Shown here one piece after another: positions 6,444 to 23,390 of a stretch of 30,720 nt of DNA. Every line of letters starts with the position of its first letter. Position 1 is the first letter of the stretch. The position numbers and the translations under genes are program-made. The stretch spans positions 1 to 30,720 of IMG/VR virus record IMGVR_UViG_3300047168_000071; one strand, 5' to 3'. The notes beneath the pieces are model-generated. The model was not told where the DNA came from. It searched no databases and was given only the letters and a program-made list of their open reading frames with translations. Origin of the DNA: a virus.

Positions 6444-6646
6444 TGCGCCGGACGGTCATGATGGAGGTCGACATCTTCGATGCCGGCCTCTTGCTCGCCA
6501 CGGCTCGCCGGCACGCGCCGGAAGCGGACATCAGCGACGAAGCCGGTGCGCTGATCGCCCTGCTCGACCCCGGCGGCGGAGGCGACGCCTACGCCGGCAA
6601 CCTCAACGAGGCCGGCATTCAGATCGAGCAAACGACGGTCAGCTAA
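6443..6646 (+). CDS. Small acidic protein, second gene of + cassette
   Basis: A 67-residue acidic protein, start overlapping the previous stop as TGATG at 6441-6445, so the two are probably translated together. It contains helices and a Gly-rich turn (LDPGGGGDAYAG). The stop codon at 6644-6646 overlaps the stop of the convergent PLP-fold gene. No family recognised. Pairing of a basic, possibly DNA-binding partner with a small acidic protein is notable, but no toxin or antitoxin motif is evident. Confidence 0.65.
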   Translation: MRRTVMMEVDIFDAGLLLATARRHAPEADISDEAGALIALLDPGGGGDAYAGNLNEAGIQIEQTTVS

Positions 6647-7362
6647 TCAGCCGGCCCGGTCACATTCCAGAGAAGCACGCGGCCCGCCCCACGGCGGGCC
6701 GTCGCAATTTCCCAAGCCTTCGCGTCGTAGTGCGGATCGCTCGGGAACGGCGGGCGGCTCGCGGCCACCTGCCCGAAGCTGCGCGGGTGGACGTGAATGG
6801 TCGCCCCCGCAACATCCCCGGCCGATAGCTTCCGCCCGACCTGAACAACATGCCGGCGAGCGCCGGGCCAAGCCTTCGCCAGCGCCCGCGCCAGAACGCC
6901 GGAGCCGCTCGCGCACCAAACCTCGTCCGGCTCGACACCGGTTGCCCTGGCCGCGTCGGCGATCACGTCAATCGCCTCTGGCAGATCGAGCCCAAAGGGC
7001 GCCAGCGTCGCGCCCGTCGCCTCGCAATAGTCGCGCGCTCGCTTCTGAACCACCGTCAGGTAGCCGGGCGTCACCTGATAGACCTTCGCGCCGAGCCGCT
7101 TCGCCATCCATGCACGCGGATGCGCTTGCGCTCGCTTCGCGACGAACAGCGTCGCGCGCTTTCCCGTCTCCCGCGCCGCCCAAGCGAGCGCGCTTTGCGC
7201 GCCGCCTTCAGCCGGCGTGGCGTAGACCAACTCGTCGGCCGTCTCGAAGAGCCGGATCAGGAAGCGGGCCTTCGTGCCGCCCCCAATCAGATCGTCCCGG
7301 ACAACCAAAATCCCGTCATGCTCGACGACGGTCGGCGCCGGGATCAAAGCTCCTCGCCCCAC
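6643..7362 (-). CDS. PLP-dependent fold-type II enzyme-like protein (ACC deaminase / cysteine desulfhydrase-like)
   Basis: A 239-residue protein with hallmarks of the tryptophan-synthase-beta fold. The likely Schiff-base Lys31 lies in GGGTKAR, matching the GGNKxR motif of ACC deaminases. GGAQSA at 53-58 matches the following GGxQSN loop but with Asn replaced by Ala. A glycine phosphate-binding loop ASGSG lies at 151-155. It is shorter than cellular homologues (about 320-340 residues). The frame opens with GTG at 7362, overlapping the methylase gene by 19 bases; a TTG at 7347 would give a TTGA overlap and is a credible alternative start. Its position after ParB and methylase genes suggests a role with DNA modification or the ParB module. 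The substrate is unknown. Confidence 0.65.
   Translation of the reverse strand: MGRGALIPAPTVVEHDGILVVRDDLIGGGTKARFLIRLFETADELVYATPAEGGAQSALAWAARETGKRATLFVAKRAQAHPRAWMAKRLGAKVYQVTPGYLTVVQKRARDYCEATGATLAPFGLDLPEAIDVIADAARATGVEPDEVWCASGSGVLARALAKAWPGARRHVVQVGRKLSAGDVAGATIHVHPRSFGQVAASRPPFPSDPHYDAKAWEIATARRGAGRVLLWNVTGPAD
6681..6700 (+). terminator. Hairpin just beyond the + cassette, possible terminator
   Basis: A perfect 8-bp GC stem (GGCCCGCC and its complement) with a CCAC loop, 34 bases after the + cassette stop. It lies inside the 3' coding end of the convergent PLP-fold gene. Only a weak AATTT follows, so intrinsic termination is uncertain. Confidence 0.3.
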
Positions 7363-8258
7363 TGCCCCTCGGCCGCCGGGCCAGCGTCATCCGCCGGCAC
7401 GTCGCCGAATTCCACTTCGCCGATGGCCTCAGTCGCCCGCTTCGGATCGCCCTTCACGAAGACGAGGACGTTCTGATGCGTCTTGCCGAGCTTCCGCGTC
7501 GTGGCGAACTGCTTGCCCGCGCGGATCGGCAGCGAGCCGGCGGCGGTGACGAGCACCGCTTCGTTGTACAGCCGCAGCCCCGCCGCCTCGAAGGCGGCGA
7601 TGGTGTGCCACGGAAAGCCGAGATACATGCCCTTCGCATCGCGAACGTCGCCGACGACGAAGCACGCGAAGCGGTCCGCCTTCAGCTTGGCCGACGCCGC
7701 CGCAATGATGTCGGCGTAGGCGGCCCGGAAGTCCGCGTAATCCATCGTCGACAGATCGCGCGGATCGTCGCTGTAGACTTCGAGGTCCGCATAGGGCGGG
7801 CACGAGAAGACGAAATCGGCCTCGACATCGAGCGCCGGCAGCACCTCGCGGCTATCGCCGACGTGCCATTCCGGCACGATGTCGTCGCAAATGCGCGCCG
7901 CCTGATCTTGGTTGGCCTCGACCTGCTCGGGCCGAAGATCGACGCCCACATACTGGCGGCCGAGCTTCGCGGCGACGATGCCGCGCACCGATCCGCCAGC
8001 GAAGGGATCGAGCACAAGGCCGGCCGGCGGACAGAACCACCGGTAGGCAAGCTCGCAAAGCACCGGATCAAAAATCGAGGTGCCCGAGGCTGACGGCGCG
8101 CCGCCGTCCTGCCCATCGTAGGGATGCACGGTCGTCCCGTGCGTGAGGCCGCCCTTCAGGCTCGCCGTTTGCTTCCGCCGACCGACGACCTGATCGTTGA
8201 AGTTTCCGCCGCCGTGAACGGCGCCGGTCATGAAGGTCTTCGAACTCGGCTTCTTCAC
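7344..8258 (-). CDS. DNA methyltransferase (SAM-dependent, N4/N6 amino type)
   Basis: A 304-residue DNA methylase. The SAM-binding motif I is DPFAGGS at residues 84-90, followed by GVDLRPEQ (acidic ribose-binding motif), and the catalytic motif IV is SCPPY at 152-156. This order (SAM site before catalytic site) is the alpha/gamma-like arrangement. The protein starts with GTG at 8258 in a GTGA overlap with the ParB-domain gene. Residues 36-47 (GGLTHGTTVHPY) almost repeat the end of the ParB protein, so the two behave like one split polypeptide. It probably protects phage DNA from host restriction or alters gene control. The target sequence cannot be read from the protein. Confidence 0.88.
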   Translation of the reverse strand: MKKPSSKTFMTGAVHGGGNFNDQVVGRRKQTASLKGGLTHGTTVHPYDGQDGGAPSASGTSIFDPVLCELAYRWFCPPAGLVLDPFAGGSVRGIVAAKLGRQYVGVDLRPEQVEANQDQAARICDDIVPEWHVGDSREVLPALDVEADFVFSCPPYADLEVYSDDPRDLSTMDYADFRAAYADIIAAASAKLKADRFACFVVGDVRDAKGMYLGFPWHTIAAFEAAGLRLYNEAVLVTAAGSLPIRAGKQFATTRKLGKTHQNVLVFVKGDPKRATEAIGEVEFGDVPADDAGPAAEGQWGEEL

Positions 8259-8980
8259 GCCTTCGCCCTCGCGCGATACGGATCGGTCGTGGTGCGGTGC
8301 GTGAGCCCGCCACGGAGATCTTCCGTCTGGCTGCCCTTACGAGCGGCCCGCTTCTTCGGGTCGGGCTCGTTGATCGTGTCCGAGAACTTCAGCAGGTTCT
8401 CGCCGCGCCCAACTTCGCTCTGAATTCCGAGGGCCAGCCAGGCGCGCTTGCGCTCCTGCCACCATCCCTCGGCCGCGCGCAACACCGAGAACGGCGCCAC
8501 GCCGAACCGATCCGCAAGGTTGCCGACCTTCTGGCGGCCGGCGCCCTCGGCATCGCCGAGCAGCTTCTCGATCTCGTCGGCGTCGAAGCCGATCAGGTCG
8601 ACAGCGAAGCCCTCGTCGCGAAGCTCACCGAGCTCAATCTTGAGAAGCTCGTCGTCCCATTCGCCGCTCTCGGCGAGCTTGTTGTCAGCGAGCGTGTAGG
8701 CGCGCCGCTGCTCGTCCGTCCAGCCGCGCGCGATGATGACGGGCACTTCGGCGAGGCCGAGTTCCTTTGCCGCCAGCACACGACCGTGCCCCGCAACGAT
8801 CGTTCCGTCTTCCGCGACGAGGATCGGGATCGTGAAGCCGAACTCGCGCATGGAAGCCGCAAGCTGCGCGACCTGTTCGGGCGGATGCTTCTTCGCATTC
8901 CGCGCATAGGGGATCAGGTCGTCGACGGGCCATTTCTCGACCGCTTCAGCGAGCACGCGCACCGAATTCCGGACCGCCAT
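8255..8980 (-). CDS. ParB-domain protein linked to DNA methylase
   Basis: A 241-residue protein. Residues about 18-140 are a ParB N-terminal (sulfiredoxin-like) domain with the AGHGRVLAA motif at 63-71, the site used for nucleotide or phosphate chemistry in this superfamily. Residues 150-200 form a Trp/Arg-rich segment (EGWWQERKRAW), and the tail ends with GGLTHRTTTDPY. Start ATG at 8980 is preceded by GAGGAG. ParB domains are often fused to DNA methylases in phages; here the methylase is the next gene with a GTGA overlap. No partitioning partner (ParA) is present, so plasmid segregation is less likely than DNA modification. Confidence 0.85.
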   Translation of the reverse strand: MAVRNSVRVLAEAVEKWPVDDLIPYARNAKKHPPEQVAQLAASMREFGFTIPILVAEDGTIVAGHGRVLAAKELGLAEVPVIIARGWTDEQRRAYTLADNKLAESGEWDDELLKIELGELRDEGFAVDLIGFDADEIEKLLGDAEGAGRQKVGNLADRFGVAPFSVLRAAEGWWQERKRAWLALGIQSEVGRGENLLKFSDTINEPDPKKRAARKGSQTEDLRGGLTHRTTTDPYRARAKA

Positions 8981-9265
8981 CAAGGCTCCTCGACATGGGC
9001 GCAGCCGATCCGGAGAACCCCGAACCGAACTGGCAATTTGCAAACCAGAAAAACGCGCATATTTGGGGGCCGCGCGCGCCCGCATGGCATGCCCTAAGCC
9101 GAAAGGTACCTAAAGGCCGGCCGCCCCCTTGGCCTTGCTTGCCCCTTTGCCGGGCCACAGGCGCGCGGAGAATGCGCCCGCCGCGATGGGGCGCTAGGGG
9201 GGGCGCCCTTCGGACGAGCGCGCGACGTGCGCGGCCTGTGATCGATGCTCCGCCTTCGCCTTCGA
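8981..9265. promoter_or_regulatory. Spacer upstream of the parB-methylase unit with ATTTGCAAA site
   Basis: A 285-base gap with no convincing gene. It holds ATTTGCAAA at 9036-9044, 56 bases upstream of the parB-domain start, matching the motif found at three other operon heads. Palindromes GGCATGCC (9086-9093) and GGCCGGCC near 9116 are also present. The local AT-rich patch around 9030-9065 is consistent with a leftward promoter. Confidence 0.5.
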
Positions 9266-9793
9266 TCAGGCGAAAAGCCGCATCAACTCATGGTCGATGC
9301 GGCGCATGACGAAGGGGCCGACCTTCTCCCAAACGAGGACGGTCGGCTCGCGGACGATCTCGCGCCCGATGTTCGGACCGAACAGGCCCTTGATCGGCCC
9401 GCGCTCTTTGGCTCGCCGCTTGAAGACCTTCGCCCCGAAGCGGGGGACGATGAACGTGCTCTTGAAGACGCGCCTGATATTCCAGGGCGCGGCCGATACG
9501 CCTCGCGCGCCTTGGCGCGCGCCGAAGAGGTTGAGATTGGTCTCGCGCCCCTTGGCGATCAGCGAATAGGACAGATCGAGCGAGGTCGCTCGCTTGTTCG
9601 AGACGGCCTGATTGATGAGGCCGTATTTGATACCGGTCTGTGCGACCAGCGAGCGGCGCACCTGAGTGCGGCCTTGATCGCCGCCTCGATTGAGGGCGCG
9701 CTGATAGACCCGCCGCATGTCGCGGCTGCTGACGTAGCGAAGGACGCGACCATATTCGGCCGCGACCTGATCTCGCGTGATGACGACTTCCAT
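9266..9793 (-). CDS. Minor tail protein Z-like (tail completion) protein
   Basis: A 175-residue basic protein resembling lambda gpZ, which completes the tail tip proximal to the head. The pattern is an N-terminal helix, a run RRSLVAQTGIK, a central LFGARQGARGVSAAPW segment and a later RGPIKGLFGP motif, as in gpZ-family proteins where a GARxxxxGVSA strand precedes the basic IKxLxGP motif. Start ATG at 9793 with GGAGAG upstream. It is displaced from the head genes by the ParB/methylase/PLP group and the + cassette, which is odd for a structural gene. No other tail gene is in the window. Confidence 0.7.
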   Translation of the reverse strand: MEVVITRDQVAAEYGRVLRYVSSRDMRRVYQRALNRGGDQGRTQVRRSLVAQTGIKYGLINQAVSNKRATSLDLSYSLIAKGRETNLNLFGARQGARGVSAAPWNIRRVFKSTFIVPRFGAKVFKRRAKERGPIKGLFGPNIGREIVREPTVLVWEKVGPFVMRRIDHELMRLFA

Positions 9794-10367
9794 CGTCTCT
9801 CCGTCTTAGACGTTGCCGCTGTTCGCGCTGACGGTTTCTCATCGTCAGGCGGGCTTCGGGTCATCAAAGGTCGAGCCGCGCATCTGCGCGAGCGCGCCTT
9901 CTCGTCCTCGCGGCTCTCCGCTTACAAGCTCTGATTAGAATTCTGAAGCTCTTCCATCTGCCGGCCTCGGCGCTTGAGCGCCGGTCCGGCTTGCGAGCGG
10001 CTCTTGTTGGAAGAGATAGGGGTGGCTTCGCGTGAAGAAATCGCGATTTTCGGAGCGCCCGTCAAGCACGAAATTTGGCTCAGCCGGGAGAAGGCGCGCG
10101 CGAGCGCAGACGAAATCCACCGAGCGCGCGGGCTTCCGCTTCACTTGGCTCACTATCAGAAAAAAGCGACGCCAAAGCGAAAAGACTTGACAGCTTCGTG
10201 AGCCAAATCGCGCGCGCGAATGAGCATCCGCGACCGGAAATCGGAAGGGCGGACGACGCGCGGAGGATGTCACGCCGAGCCTGATCGATGTCACGCCCGC
10301 GCGCTTTGGCGTCACGCGGCCGAGCGCCCGCTGTCACGATGCGGGCGGATCGCGTCACAGCGCGCGA
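9794..10367. other. Structured non-coding block, candidate replication or packaging site
   Basis: A 574-base block without a convincing gene. It contains, in order: stem CTGACG/CGTCAG (9828-9848); an outer 8-bp stem CTCTTCCA/TGGAAGAG (9949-9956 with 10008-10015) enclosing a hairpin CGGCGC-TTGA-GCGCCG (9968-9983); a perfect palindrome AAATCGCGATTT (10038-10049); a 9-bp inverted repeat TTGGCTCAC/GTGAGCCAA (10145-10153 with 10198-10206) plus an extra direct copy TTGGCTCA at 10075-10082; and five phased GTCAC iterons. The stretch 10145-10206 is A-rich compared with its surroundings. This density of repeats suggests protein binding: replication origin, packaging site or control region. Confidence 0.6.
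10269..10359. repeat. Five GTCAC iterons with 21-22 bp period
   Basis: The core GTCAC begins at 10269, 10290, 10311, 10333 and 10354, spacing 21, 21, 22 and 21 bases, or two helical turns. The first three copies read GTCACGC, the fourth GTCACGA, the fifth GTCACAG; each is preceded by T or C then G. Copies one and two share GATGTCACGCC. The 22-base step breaks codon phase, so this is not a protein repeat. All copies would lie on one face of the helix, as in iteron arrays bound by initiator or partition proteins. Confidence 0.75.
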
Positions 10368-10817
10368 TCAGCGCGGCATGTAGAAGGCCGCGTGCCCGGC
10401 GTCGAGCATCTGCTGATTGATGTTCGCTCCATCGAGCCAGATGATCCCGAGGTAGCGCCCGAACTTCTCCTGCCGATCCTCGCCGTGCGTCCCCTTGATC
10501 GTCTCAAGAATGACCGGCTTGCCCTCGATCTTCCCGGCGAGGAAGGCCGTCGCCTCGGCACCGCCTGGCGCATTCTTCTCGGGCGCATTGATCCCATAGA
10601 GCCGGATGCGCTCGTCGCGAACCCACGTGTGGAAGCCGAGGTCGATGTCGACGAGAACCGTGTCGCCATCGATCACGCGCGTCACGAGAGCCTTGTAGTG
10701 GTACAGATCGCCTTCGAGCGGCGAGCCGCTGCCGACCGCTGGCGCGGTGATCTGCTCCGCCGCTGCCGCACTGACGAAAAAGGCGGCCATCGCCGCCAGG
10801 ATCAATCGCCCGATCAT
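10368..10817 (-). CDS. Exported micrococcal-nuclease-like (SNase/TNase) protein
   Basis: A 149-residue nuclease homologous in pattern to staphylococcal thermonuclease. An N-terminal signal peptide (hydrophobic residues 3-20, ending SAAAA before EQ) predicts export to periplasm or medium. The OB-fold core shows VIDGDT (48-53), IRLYGINAPE (71-80) and FGRYLG (119-124), containing the metal-binding Asp, catalytic Arg/Glu and second Arg expected for the family. It is the last gene of the leftward block before the iteron region. It would cleave DNA or RNA outside the cytoplasm. The signal peptide separates it from phage recombination nucleases and suggests defence against incoming DNA or nutrient scavenging. 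Confidence 0.88.
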   Translation of the reverse strand: MIGRLILAAMAAFFVSAAAAEQITAPAVGSGSPLEGDLYHYKALVTRVIDGDTVLVDIDLGFHTWVRDERIRLYGINAPEKNAPGGAEATAFLAGKIEGKPVILETIKGTHGEDRQEKFGRYLGIIWLDGANINQQMLDAGHAAFYMPR

Positions 10818-11337: not shown

Positions 11338-11645
11338 GGCTTCGCCCGCTCCAAGACCTTCGCCATCCGCGCGCGCCAGTCGTCGCCCTTCGCCTTGAAG
11401 CGAGCAACGGCCTTATGGCTCAGGCGAAGCGAGACGGCCTCCTTTGGATTGTCGACGCGCGGCCGACCGCGCGACCGCTTGATGCTCTCCATCAGCGCCG
11501 GCAGCGCCTCGCCGAACGGCTTCGCCTGCGCAAGCTGCTCGTCGGTCACGTCCTCGTCGTCGGGATCGGCCGCAATCTGTGCCTGGATCACGGCCTCCGA
11601 AATCCGCCCCCGGCGAGGCCGGGGGATCGCGCGCGTCCTCTTCAT
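11334..11645 (-). CDS. brnA: BrnA-type antitoxin
   Basis: A 103-residue protein with an acidic central region and a C-terminal ribbon-helix-helix segment (VSLRLSHKAVARFKAKG, then DWRARMAKVLERA), the standard BrnA layout. It would bind and neutralise the upstream toxin and repress their promoter. The ATG at 11645 overlaps the brnT stop as ATGA. A hairpin with an 8-bp GC stem lies at 11607-11625, 20-38 bases into the coding sequence. In brnTA operons the toxin gene comes first, as here. Confidence 0.88.
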   Translation of the reverse strand: MKRTRAIPRPRRGRISEAVIQAQIAADPDDEDVTDEQLAQAKPFGEALPALMESIKRSRGRPRVDNPKEAVSLRLSHKAVARFKAKGDDWRARMAKVLERAKP

Positions 11646-11887
11646 AGTGCCCTTCTTTCCTTTCGGCTGGCCGCCCGCATCGAGACAATCGAGATCGCCT
11701 CGCGGCCGAGCGGCTTGAAGATCACCGTGAGCGGGATGCCGCCGAATTCGCCAATCGCCTTGAGGCGGCCGAGCTTGGCGGGGACAACCACCGAGGCGGC
11801 GAAGAACTCGACGGTGAGATCGGCGAAATCCAGACCCCGGCTTTCGAGGTTGGCAAGGCGCTTCGGCTCATCCCACACGATCTTCAT
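11642..11887 (-). CDS. brnT: BrnT-type ribonuclease toxin
   Basis: An 81-residue RelE-like fold toxin that cleaves RNA and halts growth until neutralised by BrnA. The family signature is clear: N-terminal KIVWDEPKRLANLESRGLDF, then the late motif REAISIVSMRAASRKERR, where the conserved Arg/Ser/Arg residues are expected at the active site. Start ATG at 11887 with almost no Shine-Dalgarno, suggesting weak initiation. The 10-bp inverted repeat at 11900-11933 sits just upstream. On a prophage it may stabilise the element or guard against other phages. Confidence 0.92.
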   Translation of the reverse strand: MKIVWDEPKRLANLESRGLDFADLTVEFFAASVVVPAKLGRLKAIGEFGGIPLTVIFKPLGREAISIVSMRAASRKERRAL

Positions 11888-19669: not shown

Positions 19670-19972
19670 CTAGCCGGCAGGCCCCTCCCCCGCTTTTCCA
19701 ACCGCTGCGTGAGCCCGGCGGAAGCGGGCCTCAAAGCCGGCGCGGGCCTTACGGCGCATCTCCCGCGCGGGCAGGCGGCCGATAAGCTCCCCCGCCGTAT
19801 CGGCGAGGGCTTCGAGGGCGGCGGTCGTATCGCCGATGGGATCGCCGGCCGCGTCCCGGCGGCCGTAGCGCCGGAACCACTCGACGATGGCAATGCCGAC
19901 GTAGACAGCGAGCTTCGGCACAGCCTTGGCTTCAGGCGGCGGCGCGTCCTTCGGGGCTTCAGGGGCTTGCAT
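19670..19972 (-). CDS. Small hypothetical protein, last gene of the replication unit (100 aa)
   Basis: A 100-residue protein with an Ala/Pro-rich N-terminus, one hydrophobic helix (KLAVYVGIAIVEWFRRYGRR, about 19-38) and a helical basic C-terminus. The helix could be membrane-associated or buried. Start ATG 19972 preceded by GAGGAG. It ends 57 bases before the operator pair. Function unknown. Confidence 0.72.
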   Translation of the reverse strand: MQAPEAPKDAPPPEAKAVPKLAVYVGIAIVEWFRRYGRRDAAGDPIGDTTAALEALADTAGELIGRLPAREMRRKARAGFEARFRRAHAAVGKAGEGPAG

Positions 19973-19986
19973 CGCGGGGGTCTCCT

Positions 19987-20529
19987 CTATCGGTTCGCAT
20001 CTTCGATGGGCTTGCGGTCGCGGACGAGCCCGACCGCGATCAGAAAGTAGGCTCGGGCGAGCCGGCGCTTTGCCGTCTCGCGAGCGAAGCCGCGCCGGAC
20101 CGCCTCGCGCTGCCAAGAGCGAATGCGCAAAGCGCGGCAGCGCAGCCAGATGTTCAGCGCGGCGAGCGCCTGCGCCTCGACGACATAGCGGCGCCACGTC
20201 AGCGCGTCCTCGGCCATCGTGACTTGGCGGGCGCTCGGCTGAAGCACGATCCGATTGTGGTCGCGGTCGCGCTCGCCCTCTTGCTGCTCCTCCTGCGCGA
20301 GCAGATCGGCGAACTCGCGAAGGACCGGCGGCCAGGCGTTGCCGAACTCCTTCGGCGCGGTCCGGCCCGACGTGCGCTCGATCAGGCGCGCCGCCTGGGA
20401 AAGCCGCTCGCGGATGATCTCGATGGCGTTCTCGGGCAGCCCCTCGGTCTCGCGGGCAAGCCGCCGAAGATCGGCGCCGGCCGCATGCTCGCGGACCGCC
20501 CGCCTCGCCTCTTGCCGATTGGCGCGCAT
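19987..20529 (-). CDS. DUF6362-like phage protein with helix-turn-helix (180 aa)
   Basis: A 180-residue helical protein. The pattern WPPVLREFADLL, then SARQVTMAEDALTW and RGFARETAKRRLARAYFLIAVGL resembles the DUF6362 family common in alphaproteobacterial phages, whose last helices form an HTH. ATG 20529 overlaps the helicase stop as TGATG. A longer upstream frame is the read-through of the helicase gene and is rejected. Function is unknown but it sits with primase and helicase genes. Confidence 0.72.
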   Translation of the reverse strand: MRANRQEARRAVREHAAGADLRRLARETEGLPENAIEIIRERLSQAARLIERTSGRTAPKEFGNAWPPVLREFADLLAQEEQQEGERDRDHNRIVLQPSARQVTMAEDALTWRRYVVEAQALAALNIWLRCRALRIRSWQREAVRRGFARETAKRRLARAYFLIAVGLVRDRKPIEDANR

Positions 20530-21848
20530 CAAATGCCCTCCATGTTCTGCTGCCCCTTGCCGAGATCGTCGCTTGCGGCGACTTCGGGCTCCCGCTCCTC
20601 GACGCCACGCAGCTTGACGCCGCGCACGCGCTTCCCGGCGAACCACATCCAGTGCCCCGACGAACCGATGACGCGATTTCTAATGAGGGATTTGGTCGCC
20701 CGGCCCCACCGCTGGCGCAGACGCCCGAGCACCTTTTCCTCGTCGCCTTCCTCGGTATTGGCATAACGCTCGCGGAAGAGAGCCCGGACCTTCTCGGCGT
20801 CGACCACGAGCGTGATGTTGCTCGGCGACTTCAGGTCTTGCGGCGGCATCTCGCCGTGCACGCCGATGGCGTCGCTCAAGACGCGGAGGAATTCGACCTC
20901 GCTCTGATTTGCGGGATAGCCGCGCTCGCGCCGGGCGCCATTCTCGTCGAGCGGCTGCTCGCGATTGACGACGACGCATGAAGTGATCGGGTCCGCATCG
21001 TCGTCGTGATCGACCGTGATCGGCTTCAACACGAACGGATGCGAGGCGCCGGCTGCGCCGGCCTTGAACTTCCTCACGACCCACTTGTTGGTGGGCTCCT
21101 CGTTGGATCGAGGCGTCACCTCCCAAGTGAAGTCGGCGGCGCCGAGAAGCGCCTCGTGGCCGCGCGGTCCCCGCCCGACCTCCTTCCCGCCGTGATGCAC
21201 GCCGACCACCGCGACCTGAAGCTCTTTCTGAATGGCCTCGCAATTGCGGACGAAGCCGCCCATGACCGCGCTGTCGTTCTCGTTGCCGCCGGCAAGCGCG
21301 CGGCTCACCGTGTCGATCACCACCGCCCCGACGCCGACGCCGCATTTCTCGCGCATCAGGAGGTCGATGCCGCGCACTTCCTCAGTCAGCCGCTTCGTGT
21401 CCGCGTCGCTCGATGCGAGGTCGACTGAAGTCGGCAGGAAGACGAACGGCAGCGGCGTCTCGGGATCAAGGCCCTGATTGAGCCGCCAAGCATGAAGGCG
21501 GATCACGAAGTCGTCGGAGCCCTCGGCGACGAGATAGACGACGCCGAAGCCGTTCAGGCGATAGCCGAACCACTCTTTGTCCTCGACGCGGCGCGCTTCG
21601 AGCGCGGCGGCCGAGCCGTTCAGCATCAGGTCGGCGAGCAAAAAGGATTTCCCGCAGCCGGGCGGCCCGAAGAGGATGCCGAACGATCGTGCGAGAATGA
21701 GGTCTTTCACCAGCCAATCGCGGCGGGCCGGCTTGCGGCCGGCCTCGTTGAACCAAGTCGCGCCGAAGTGCGACCGGAAGGGCTTGATGACCGGGAGCGC
21801 CAGGCGCTCGAATTCCTCGAACGAAAGGGTTGCCGGAACCTGCGTCAT
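20529..21848 (-). CDS. RepA-like hexameric replicative helicase / AAA ATPase
   Basis: A 439-residue RecA-fold ATPase of the RepA/AAA_25 type. Walker A is GPPGCGKSF at about residues 61-69, Walker B is GAVVIDTVSR, and the later VHHGGK and RGHEALLGAAD match the sensor loop of RepA-type helicases. The C-terminal third (about 330-439) carries a winged-helix-like region followed by an acidic tail. Start ATG 21848, ATGA overlap with the primase. It should unwind DNA at the phage fork with the primase encoded just upstream. Confidence 0.88.
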   Translation of the reverse strand: MTQVPATLSFEEFERLALPVIKPFRSHFGATWFNEAGRKPARRDWLVKDLILARSFGILFGPPGCGKSFLLADLMLNGSAAALEARRVEDKEWFGYRLNGFGVVYLVAEGSDDFVIRLHAWRLNQGLDPETPLPFVFLPTSVDLASSDADTKRLTEEVRGIDLLMREKCGVGVGAVVIDTVSRALAGGNENDSAVMGGFVRNCEAIQKELQVAVVGVHHGGKEVGRGPRGHEALLGAADFTWEVTPRSNEEPTNKWVVRKFKAGAAGASHPFVLKPITVDHDDDADPITSCVVVNREQPLDENGARRERGYPANQSEVEFLRVLSDAIGVHGEMPPQDLKSPSNITLVVDAEKVRALFRERYANTEEGDEEKVLGRLRQRWGRATKSLIRNRVIGSSGHWMWFAGKRVRGVKLRGVEEREPEVAASDDLGKGQQNMEGI

Positions 21849-23044
21849 TCCCCCGCCCCCTGCTGCGAGCGCAGCACATCGTTCCAATCGAGGCCTTCAG
21901 GCGCCATCGATACAAAGACGCGGAAGCTCTCGCGCCACCGCCGCGCAGCCGTGAGAAGCTGCGCGAGCGTCGCCGGGCGGTCGCTGTCACCGTCGCCGAG
22001 GATGAACACCTCCTCGACGCCATCGGGCAAGATCGCGCCGGGCCGGTCCGGATCGGGCTCGCCGTTGTAGATCGTCCGCTTCTTCTTCTGCGGATGAGGC
22101 AGCGTCCCGGTGGCGCCGCCGGACAGATTGCCGAGCGAGATCGCCGCCGCCACGGCGGGATCGTCGCCACCGATGCCAAGCTCGTAGCCGGAGCGCGAGG
22201 TCTCGATCCCCTCGCCCACGATGAGCGCGGGGCCGGGAGGCGACAAACGGATCAGGCCCCCGCCCGCTTTTCCTAGAATTTTCTTCGCACCATTTCGCCC
22301 AGGGCAAATCGGCACGAGCTTGCGCGGCGCCGCCGCGTCCAGATACGTCCGATGCACGCCGATGATCTCGCCGGCCGCGTTACGGATCGCCGCGAGCATG
22401 GCGGGGAATTCGCCAAGCTCGATCTGCTCCTGCGCTTCCTCGTCGGGATACCCCCAATAGGCAAGACGCTGCATGAAGCGAAGGTCGCCCGTCCAGCTAG
22501 GCGAGACCGAAAGACCGCGCCCCTGAAGGTACGCGGCGGCGTGGGTTCCGATGATGGGCGCGCCGGCCTCGAAGAGGTCGGCAGCGGCACGCGCGGATCT
22601 CCGCGAGCGCCGACCCTCGCTGTCCTCAGAGGGCGGCGGCGTCTCGCGGACGGCCTCTTCAGGAGGCGGCGGTTCCTCGCGCTTCGGCTCTGGCGCCGCC
22701 TTCTTCGGCGTCGCCGCTTTCTTCGGGCGCTTCTCCTTCCCCGGCGCCGGGCGGCCTGTCATCGTCTCGCAGGCTGTGAGAAAGCCGCAGTCGTCGATGT
22801 GCATCACCGCATCGATGTAGCTTCCGCCGCCGAAGCCCCGGCAATTGAATACGCGCTCGCGGGGATTGATCGAGAAGCGGTCCGTTCCGCCGCAGCGGGG
22901 GCAAGGCCCCACCCACTCGCCACCCACGCGCCGGAGCTTGGCGCCGCGCCCTTGGACAAGGGCAACGAGGTCGACAGCCTCGGCCTCGTCGCGCCAAGCG
23001 TTGAAGTCGGCCGTGCTTTGCGGATCAGACGACATCGAGATCAT
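21845..23044 (-). CDS. Phage DNA primase (CHC2 zinc finger plus Toprim)
   Basis: A 399-residue primase. An N-terminal zinc-finger segment has Cys48, Cys51 and Cys68 (CPRCGG and NCRGF); the fourth position expected for a CHC2 finger is Phe71 instead of Cys. A Pro/Lys/Glu linker (about 98-145) leads to the Toprim part, with VGEGIET and LGDGDSD giving the acidic metal site. Start given at ATG 23044 overlapping the upstream gene by 20 bases; ATG 23035 is equally possible and neither has a clear ribosome site. It makes RNA primers for phage replication together with the RepA-like helicase. Confidence 0.88.
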   Translation of the reverse strand: MISMSSDPQSTADFNAWRDEAEAVDLVALVQGRGAKLRRVGGEWVGPCPRCGGTDRFSINPRERVFNCRGFGGGSYIDAVMHIDDCGFLTACETMTGRPAPGKEKRPKKAATPKKAAPEPKREEPPPPEEAVRETPPPSEDSEGRRSRRSARAAADLFEAGAPIIGTHAAAYLQGRGLSVSPSWTGDLRFMQRLAYWGYPDEEAQEQIELGEFPAMLAAIRNAAGEIIGVHRTYLDAAAPRKLVPICPGRNGAKKILGKAGGGLIRLSPPGPALIVGEGIETSRSGYELGIGGDDPAVAAAISLGNLSGGATGTLPHPQKKKRTIYNGEPDPDRPGAILPDGVEEVFILGDGDSDRPATLAQLLTAARRWRESFRVFVSMAPEGLDWNDVLRSQQGAGE

Positions 23045-23390
23045 GCACCAATTCGCGGAGGAGAGACGGATCGGCCGCGAGCACCTTGCGGACGATCAGC
23101 GCGGCGAGATCGCCGGGATCGCGGTCGAGCTTGTCGGCGGTCGCGTTCAGGCGCTCGCGATCAGCGACTTTCCAGCGGACACAGAGGATGTCCTCGCCGC
23201 TGTTCTCACGGAGCAACGGAATAGCGTGGACGCGCAGCATCGCCCGCACGCGCGGCCCCGTCGTCCCGCCAATCGCGCGCGCGATCTCGCCCGCGCTGGC
23301 GCCCTGGCCGGCGAGATACGCGGCGCGCAGCTTGTCCGGGCCGTACCAAGGCCGGCGCGGCAGCGCGTGGCGATGTCGGGGGCGGCTCAA
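23025..23390 (-). CDS. GcrA-like helix-turn-helix protein (121 aa)
   Basis: A 121-residue protein that starts with TTG at 23390 directly after a full Shine-Dalgarno (AGGAGGTGAT); the TTGA overlap with the previous stop supports this. Residues 15-58 read like the GcrA DNA-binding domain: Trp15, then GASAGEIARAIGGTTGPRVRA and an HAIPL end, similar to the SxxxIAxxLGGxxRxxV pattern of GcrA. The C-terminal half is acidic and helical. GcrA is an alphaproteobacterial cell-cycle regulator that responds to methylated DNA, so a phage version may alter host timing. Homology is by pattern only. Confidence 0.68.
   Translation of the reverse strand: MSRPRHRHALPRRPWYGPDKLRAAYLAGQGASAGEIARAIGGTTGPRVRAMLRVHAIPLLRENSGEDILCVRWKVADRERLNATADKLDRDPGDLAALIVRKVLAADPSLLRELVHDLDVV

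Follow-up and report, generated by a model that had tools for sequence, protein, structure and literature searches.

A phased GTCAC array directly upstream of the late operon of a temperate phage: a probable replication origin region for its own RepA-type helicase

The intergenic block upstream of neck1

The window that we analysed is a virus fragment of 30.7 kb (30,720 nucleotides). Its leftward operon runs from the genes for a primase, a RepA-type helicase and a Dda-like helicase to those for neck1, a ParB-methyltransferase, TerS, TerL and the portal. Within this operon, a block of 574 bases (9794–10367) lies between two genes on the minus strand: an SNase-like endonuclease gene as its upstream neighbour (10368–10817) and the neck1 or tail-completion gene (phrog_27, 9266–9793) as the first gene downstream. 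The TerL of the window is of the gpA type, and its relatives include the VP882 and phiHAP-1 terminases. The ParB_N-domain gene at 8255–9085 is part of a ParB-methyltransferase unit (PHROG 498) and not of a partition locus; in the phages L184 and L189 this unit forms one ORF of 459 aa. At 6643–8258, a gene for a PLP-dependent enzyme (threonine-dehydratase PHROG) adjoins a DNA methyltransferase gene. This pair is 71–84% identical in L091 and L101, and such a conserved pair is unusual in phages. A BrnT-type toxin gene of a toxin-antitoxin system is located at 11642–11887.

The block contains a candidate iteron array (10265–10361, minus strand) with five GTCAC/GTGAC cores at 10269–10273, 10290–10294, 10311–10315, 10333–10337 and 10354–10358, that is, at spacings of 21, 21, 22 and 21 bp. 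As listed on the operon strand, the core words are GTGACGC, GTGACAG, GTGACGC, GTGACAT and GTGACAT (consensus GCGTGACA), and they form a single set of five direct copies with no inverted set. Both the cores with their spacings and the lack of a credible gene in these 574 bases had been proposed in a sequence-only reading of the same DNA, and both observations were reproduced. The 3-base GC periodicity of the block is 0.31, compared to 5.6–10.5 in the neighbouring genes, and its ORFs had no match to PHROG. Besides the overlapping TCACG register, GTCAC is the only 5-mer with such a chain in the window, and the array is the only one of its kind in the 30.7 kb. When the whole window was resampled, a chain of at least five copies of any 5-mer at 20–22 bp appeared in none of 300 order-1 and in one of 300 order-2 Markov resamples; with the block resampled, the count was 0 of 5000. 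Furthermore, in about 4.1 Mb of phage and prophage sequence, a fetched and redundant comparison set, chains of at least five copies at 20–22 bp were detected only in the window, in the L083/L195/L198 phage and in G023. We thus exclude chance as an explanation and conclude that the array lies in non-coding DNA. A direct DNA search with the block in phage and plasmid collections returned no match.

Further elements are found between the array and neck1. A relatively AT-rich stretch (10140–10265, unstranded) adjoins the array and is a weak candidate for an unwinding region: its best 60-mer, at 10149, is 55% AT in a genome of 67% GC and ranks about seventh among the AT-rich 60-mers of the window. 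The motif TGAGCCAA occurs three times in the 30.7 kb, always within the block, with two copies on the minus strand (10075–10082 and 10145–10152) and an inverted copy on the plus strand (10199–10206). At the equivalent place, GAGCCAA likewise occurs three times in L083 and nowhere else in it. The 9-bp inverted repeat with an additional direct copy described in the sequence-only reading was confirmed (TTGGCTCAC at 10145, GTGAGCCAA at 10198, direct copy at 10075), and its nested stem was found as a GC-rich nested hairpin in 9956–10000. The perfect 12-bp palindrome that it had pointed out exists (TCGCGCGCGCGA at 10208, recurring at 23273), but is ordinary, as the window holds eight palindromes of this length.

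A promoter-like element, TTGACG-N19-TTTCTT (10035–10065, minus strand), aligns with TTGACG-N18-TTTCT in L083, L161 and L165. The untranslated leader of neck1 (9794–9931, minus strand) is homologous to the leader in L083 (70% over 139 columns, E 6e-10), and the arrays lie at the same distance in the window and in L083 (334 and 363 nt). A strict sigma-70 scan found no promoter; a late promoter with operator-like TGAGCCAA sites between the array and neck1 is thus a suggestion only.

Arrays in related phages and the genes that the core follows

In relatives that share neck1 and the terminase, an array is usually present upstream of neck1, but its core is different. The L083/L195/L198 phage carries GGGGACAC six times at exactly 21 bp. 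In the Brucella-group prophages, where array, neck1, terS and terL are contiguous, CCGGACA is repeated seven to ten times, with four or five of the copies at 21, 21 and 22 bp. GGGGACA arrays are found in G009/L175 and in G013/L190, and further heptamers are GTGAATG in L184 (14 copies), GTGAACG in L199, GAGGAGTT in L189 and TTGGTGACA in L200; the word in the Aurantimonas phage AmM-1 is GGGAGGC. Control sequence downstream of neck1 (365 kb) contained no comparable 5-mer chain. Pseudochrobactrum phages that encode a DnaB-like helicase have no phased array at the equivalent place; compared to the window, their TerL is 78%, their TerS 62% and their neck1 60% identical. Across all arrays, the spacings cluster at 9–13 and 21–22 bp and a period of 10.5 bp is not sharply preferred, thus we claim helical phasing for the 21-bp arrays only. 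As a weak sign, the GC-skew minimum lies less than about 3 kb from the array in G003, G011, G014 and G015, but not in G009, G013 and AmM-1. Two distant neck1 relatives carry iteron arrays inside HTH_36 (lambda-O-like) genes, with TGACAC in L164 (6400–6560) and GTGCCC in L176 (3500–3610).

Whether relatives keep the phased GTCAC array was a check suggested in the sequence-only reading: other cores are the rule upstream of neck1, but the same array recurs in G023. There, GTCAC occurs five times at 21, 21, 20 and 21 bp, about 0.7 kb upstream of the phage's own neck1 and in reversed orientation relative to neck1 when compared to the window. G023 (L322; 8881–9110 and 10108–10277) also has a second dense array, GGCATGG with 10–12 copies, about 1 kb before the GTCAC array, and a tRNA-Met gene that begins five bases past the latter. 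We considered this tRNA as an attachment site and rejected it: the tRNA is not duplicated in the record, whose single integrase lies at the far end, and a phage tRNA gene is likelier.

The comparison with G023, a single pair of phages, separates the repeat core from the packaging genes. The helicase of G023 is 53% identical to that of the window and the closest that we found, whereas TerL and neck1 are 26% and 25% identical and no relative of the window TerS was detected in G023. Conversely, L083 and G003 have close relatives of the window terminase (TerS 64–67%, TerL 78–79% identity), yet they have other cores, and phages at this level of TerS identity carry GGGGACAC or CCGGACA. Since the core is shared with G023 despite distant TerL and neck1 and differs in L083 and G003 despite close TerL and TerS, we assign the array to the replication module.

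The phages L184 and L189 provide a natural swap experiment. Over 8.5 kb, their DNA is 98.2% identical; at the protein level, TerS and TerL agree at 100%, neck1 at 96% and the ParB-methyltransferase at 94%. Nevertheless, the two differ in their arrays, which are unrelated, as are the primase-helicase genes ending there; homology is regained only 113–125 bp beyond the array. This shows that array and primase-helicase are exchanged together as a cassette while the packaging module stays unchanged. Within a helicase/primase type, the heptamer changes little or not at all, as for GTGAATG/GTGAACG at 74% identity, GAGGAGTT at 75% and TTGGTGACA at 88–90% helicase/primase identity. From these sequence comparisons, we conclude that the repeat core follows the replication module with its replicative helicase and not the packaging proteins or the late genes.

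The RepA-type helicase and arrays at the 3' ends of its relatives

The replicative helicase of the window (20529–21887, minus strand) has 452 aa with an AAA_25 core and shares the replication module with the primase (21845–23044, minus strand; CHC2 zinc finger, Toprim). The nearest solved structure to the helicase core is RSF1010 RepA (1g8y; Z 22.6, rmsd 2.3 A, 220 residues). Residues 328–416 (20640–20906, minus strand) form, in a high-confidence prediction, a winged helix of the order helix-strand-helix-helix-strand-strand, which we propose as the origin-binding domain of an iteron-binding initiator. When this C-terminal domain was folded alone, it matched winged-helix domains best, among them the one in human ORC1 (Z 8.4, rmsd 3.0, 86 residues), a likeness of general fold only; structure-library searches with the domain named no family beyond the winged helix. 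The ORF at 19670–20764 was considered as a RepC-like initiator and rejected, as most of it is an artefact overlapping the helicase; its end contains a small gene.

Among relatives of the AAA_25 helicase, an array at the 3' end of the gene, defined as one heptamer present at least six times within 500 bp, was found in 37 of 78 viral loci compared to 11 of 692 control segments (p 1.6e-31). With a criterion of five or more copies, 9 of 12 regions in Hyphomicrobiales genomes have an array at this place. For instance, L357 and L359 carry CGTGACA, identical to the word of the window, and L354 carries TGTGACA, while the other Hyphomicrobiales arrays use CGGGACA, GCGGACA or CGTAACA. The helicases of the prophages with CGTGACA (13 and 8 copies) or TGTGACA (5 copies) are 30–35% identical to that of the window; a search for closer relatives in further genomes and viral contigs found none above 35%. 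The window differs from these loci: no array stands at the 3' end of its helicase gene, and 10 kb separate this gene from the GTCAC array. Arrays displaced from the helicase are also found in G003, G009, G013 and G023.

Over 25 helicases, the similarity of the heptamers correlates with the identity of the winged helix (Mantel rho 0.48, p 0.001) and less with the identity of the ATPase domain (rho 0.18, p 0.02); the motif of each array was chosen by eye from k-mer counts, and the test does not correct for shared ancestry. In these values, which retain any effect of ancestry, the winged helix is a better guide to the heptamer than the ATPase domain.

A candidate origin and its alternatives

Judging by the comparisons above, we consider it likely that a temperate tailed phage of an alphaproteobacterium has this block, directly before its late operon, as its replication origin region and that the array provides the iterons for the phage's own RepA-type helicase. 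By analogy with the SaPI, Cch2, PICI and PLE systems, we read the five GCGTGACA sites with their spacing of two helical turns as helicase iterons. The winged-helix C-terminus of the helicase, or a partner from the same replication module, might bind the iterons side by side, and with sites two turns apart, all the bound domains would sit on the same side of the DNA. Binding could then load or assemble the helicase on the adjoining, less GC-rich DNA at 10140–10265, where unwinding would begin and the phage primase would prime. Transcription of the late operon would probably begin at the promoter-like element and be controlled through this element and the three TGAGCCAA sites.

The alternatives concern the late operon, the packaging genes and the replication module itself. 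The sequence-only reading had left open a replication origin or an array for packaging or ParB; its origin reading is favoured by a core that follows the replicative helicase, whereas the other two fail. A cos or pac site bound by the small terminase would fit the contiguity of array, neck1, terS and terL in the Brucella-group prophages and the gpA-type TerL related to VP882 and phiHAP-1. However, unrelated arrays stand beside identical TerS and TerL in L184 and L189, the Pseudochrobactrum phages lack an array despite 62% TerS and 78% TerL identity, and G023 combines the same core with a barely related TerL (26%). We regard a packaging site as very improbable. A parS-like centromere is still harder to credit: a ParB_N-domain gene is present at 8255–9085, but it belongs to the ParB-methyltransferase unit, which is 94% identical in L184 and L189 despite their unrelated arrays, and a ParA homologue is not among the genes noted in the window. 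Both readings were dismissed on the comparisons of L184 with L189 and of the window with G023.

The least improbable alternative, although in our view unlikely, is a regulatory array in which a phage transcription factor on the phased repeats activates or represses the late operon that begins with neck1. The position of the array 0.3–0.5 kb upstream of neck1, by a conserved promoter-like element and leader in the window, L083 and G003-type phages, would be consistent with such a role. Against it, the core follows the replication module instead of the late genes, the orientation to neck1 is reversed in G023, and the arrays of L184 and L189 differ although their late DNA is 98% identical. Furthermore, in relatives of the helicase the same heptamers lie a long way from late promoters, at the 3' end of the helicase gene. 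It is rather improbable, and less probable than regulation, that the array is a secondary replication element, such as an incompatibility or copy-control array for the same initiator, with the true origin outside the fragment. The array has only five direct copies and no flanking set, the window is a fragment and G023 has two arrays, which would suit a secondary element; however, the array is the sole one in 30.7 kb that include the helicase and primase genes.

Returning to the origin reading, iteron origins that are recognised by a helicase-borne domain are already known, and the window would be a variant in which we propose recognition by the helicase. In SaPIs, it is established that iterons at the 3' end of the self-encoded initiator helicase are read by its C-terminal domain, and there is biochemical support for such reading in Cch2 of SCCmec (PMC7581432). 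PICI origins share this arrangement: their iterons are located directly 3' of the Rep helicase gene (PMC6092414). The phages studied here resemble these systems in their short iterons, in a self-encoded helicase with a proposed C-terminal recognition domain, in the iterons at the 3' end of relatives of the window helicase and in the joint exchange of array and helicase. They differ in that the window helicase has a RepA/AAA_25 fold and not a DUF927 or D5/primase-C type, that its array is 10 kb away and that one set of direct 21-bp repeats replaces two sets flanking an AT-rich core. In satellite PLEs (PMC8263062), RepA and the origin are exchanged jointly, and the initiator DNA-binding domain co-varies with the origin iterons as a module; unlike the phage, these satellites have a RepA_N initiator, and their repeats of about 30 bp are semi-palindromic. 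The IncQ oriV (RSF1010 RepA/RepB/RepC; PMC7557826) shares the RepA-fold helicase and direct iterons of about 20 bp, but no RepC-like gene is among the annotated genes of the window, whose helicase has its own winged helix and whose primase is of the Toprim type. Lambda-O-type origins have phased iterons inside the HTH_36/O initiator gene, whereas the array of the window is intergenic; an initiator of this kind was rejected for the window phage, as the HTH_36 profile (PF13730) had no match in the window.

More generally, we see about even chances that the RepA-fold helicases of many phages are their own origin recognisers. Their C-terminal winged helix would read a lineage-specific heptamer, mostly NNNGACA, and the pair would be exchanged as a cassette between phages that are otherwise near-identical; in one lineage, the origin would have parted from the helicase gene and settled, as an array phased at two turns, where the late operon begins. 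What is of interest in the finding is the cassette swap, together with the relation between heptamer and helicase. The data suggest that related helicase-iteron pairs are common in ordinary phages, where origins could be located from sequence and a code between winged helix and heptamer is directly testable. As the word changes from phage to phage with the phage's helicase, origins might one day be predicted from the helicase.

The alpha protein and ori of satellite P4 (PMC6092414) are similar in that a self-encoded primase-helicase has cognate iterons; the window phage differs in helicase family and array geometry. In AmM-1 and G014-type relatives, primase-helicase genes of this kind lie beside the arrays. 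AmM-1 (L160, 44235–44650) has GGGAGGC 11 times after a D5-type primase gene, a likely origin that is unannotated; a literature search found no origin data for this phage, one of whose proteins has a DnaA C-terminal domain. Lastly, a long tandem array with a ACGGGTACGGGTCC-like unit lies near the helicase of an unrelated phage (L330, G028; 7690–8050).
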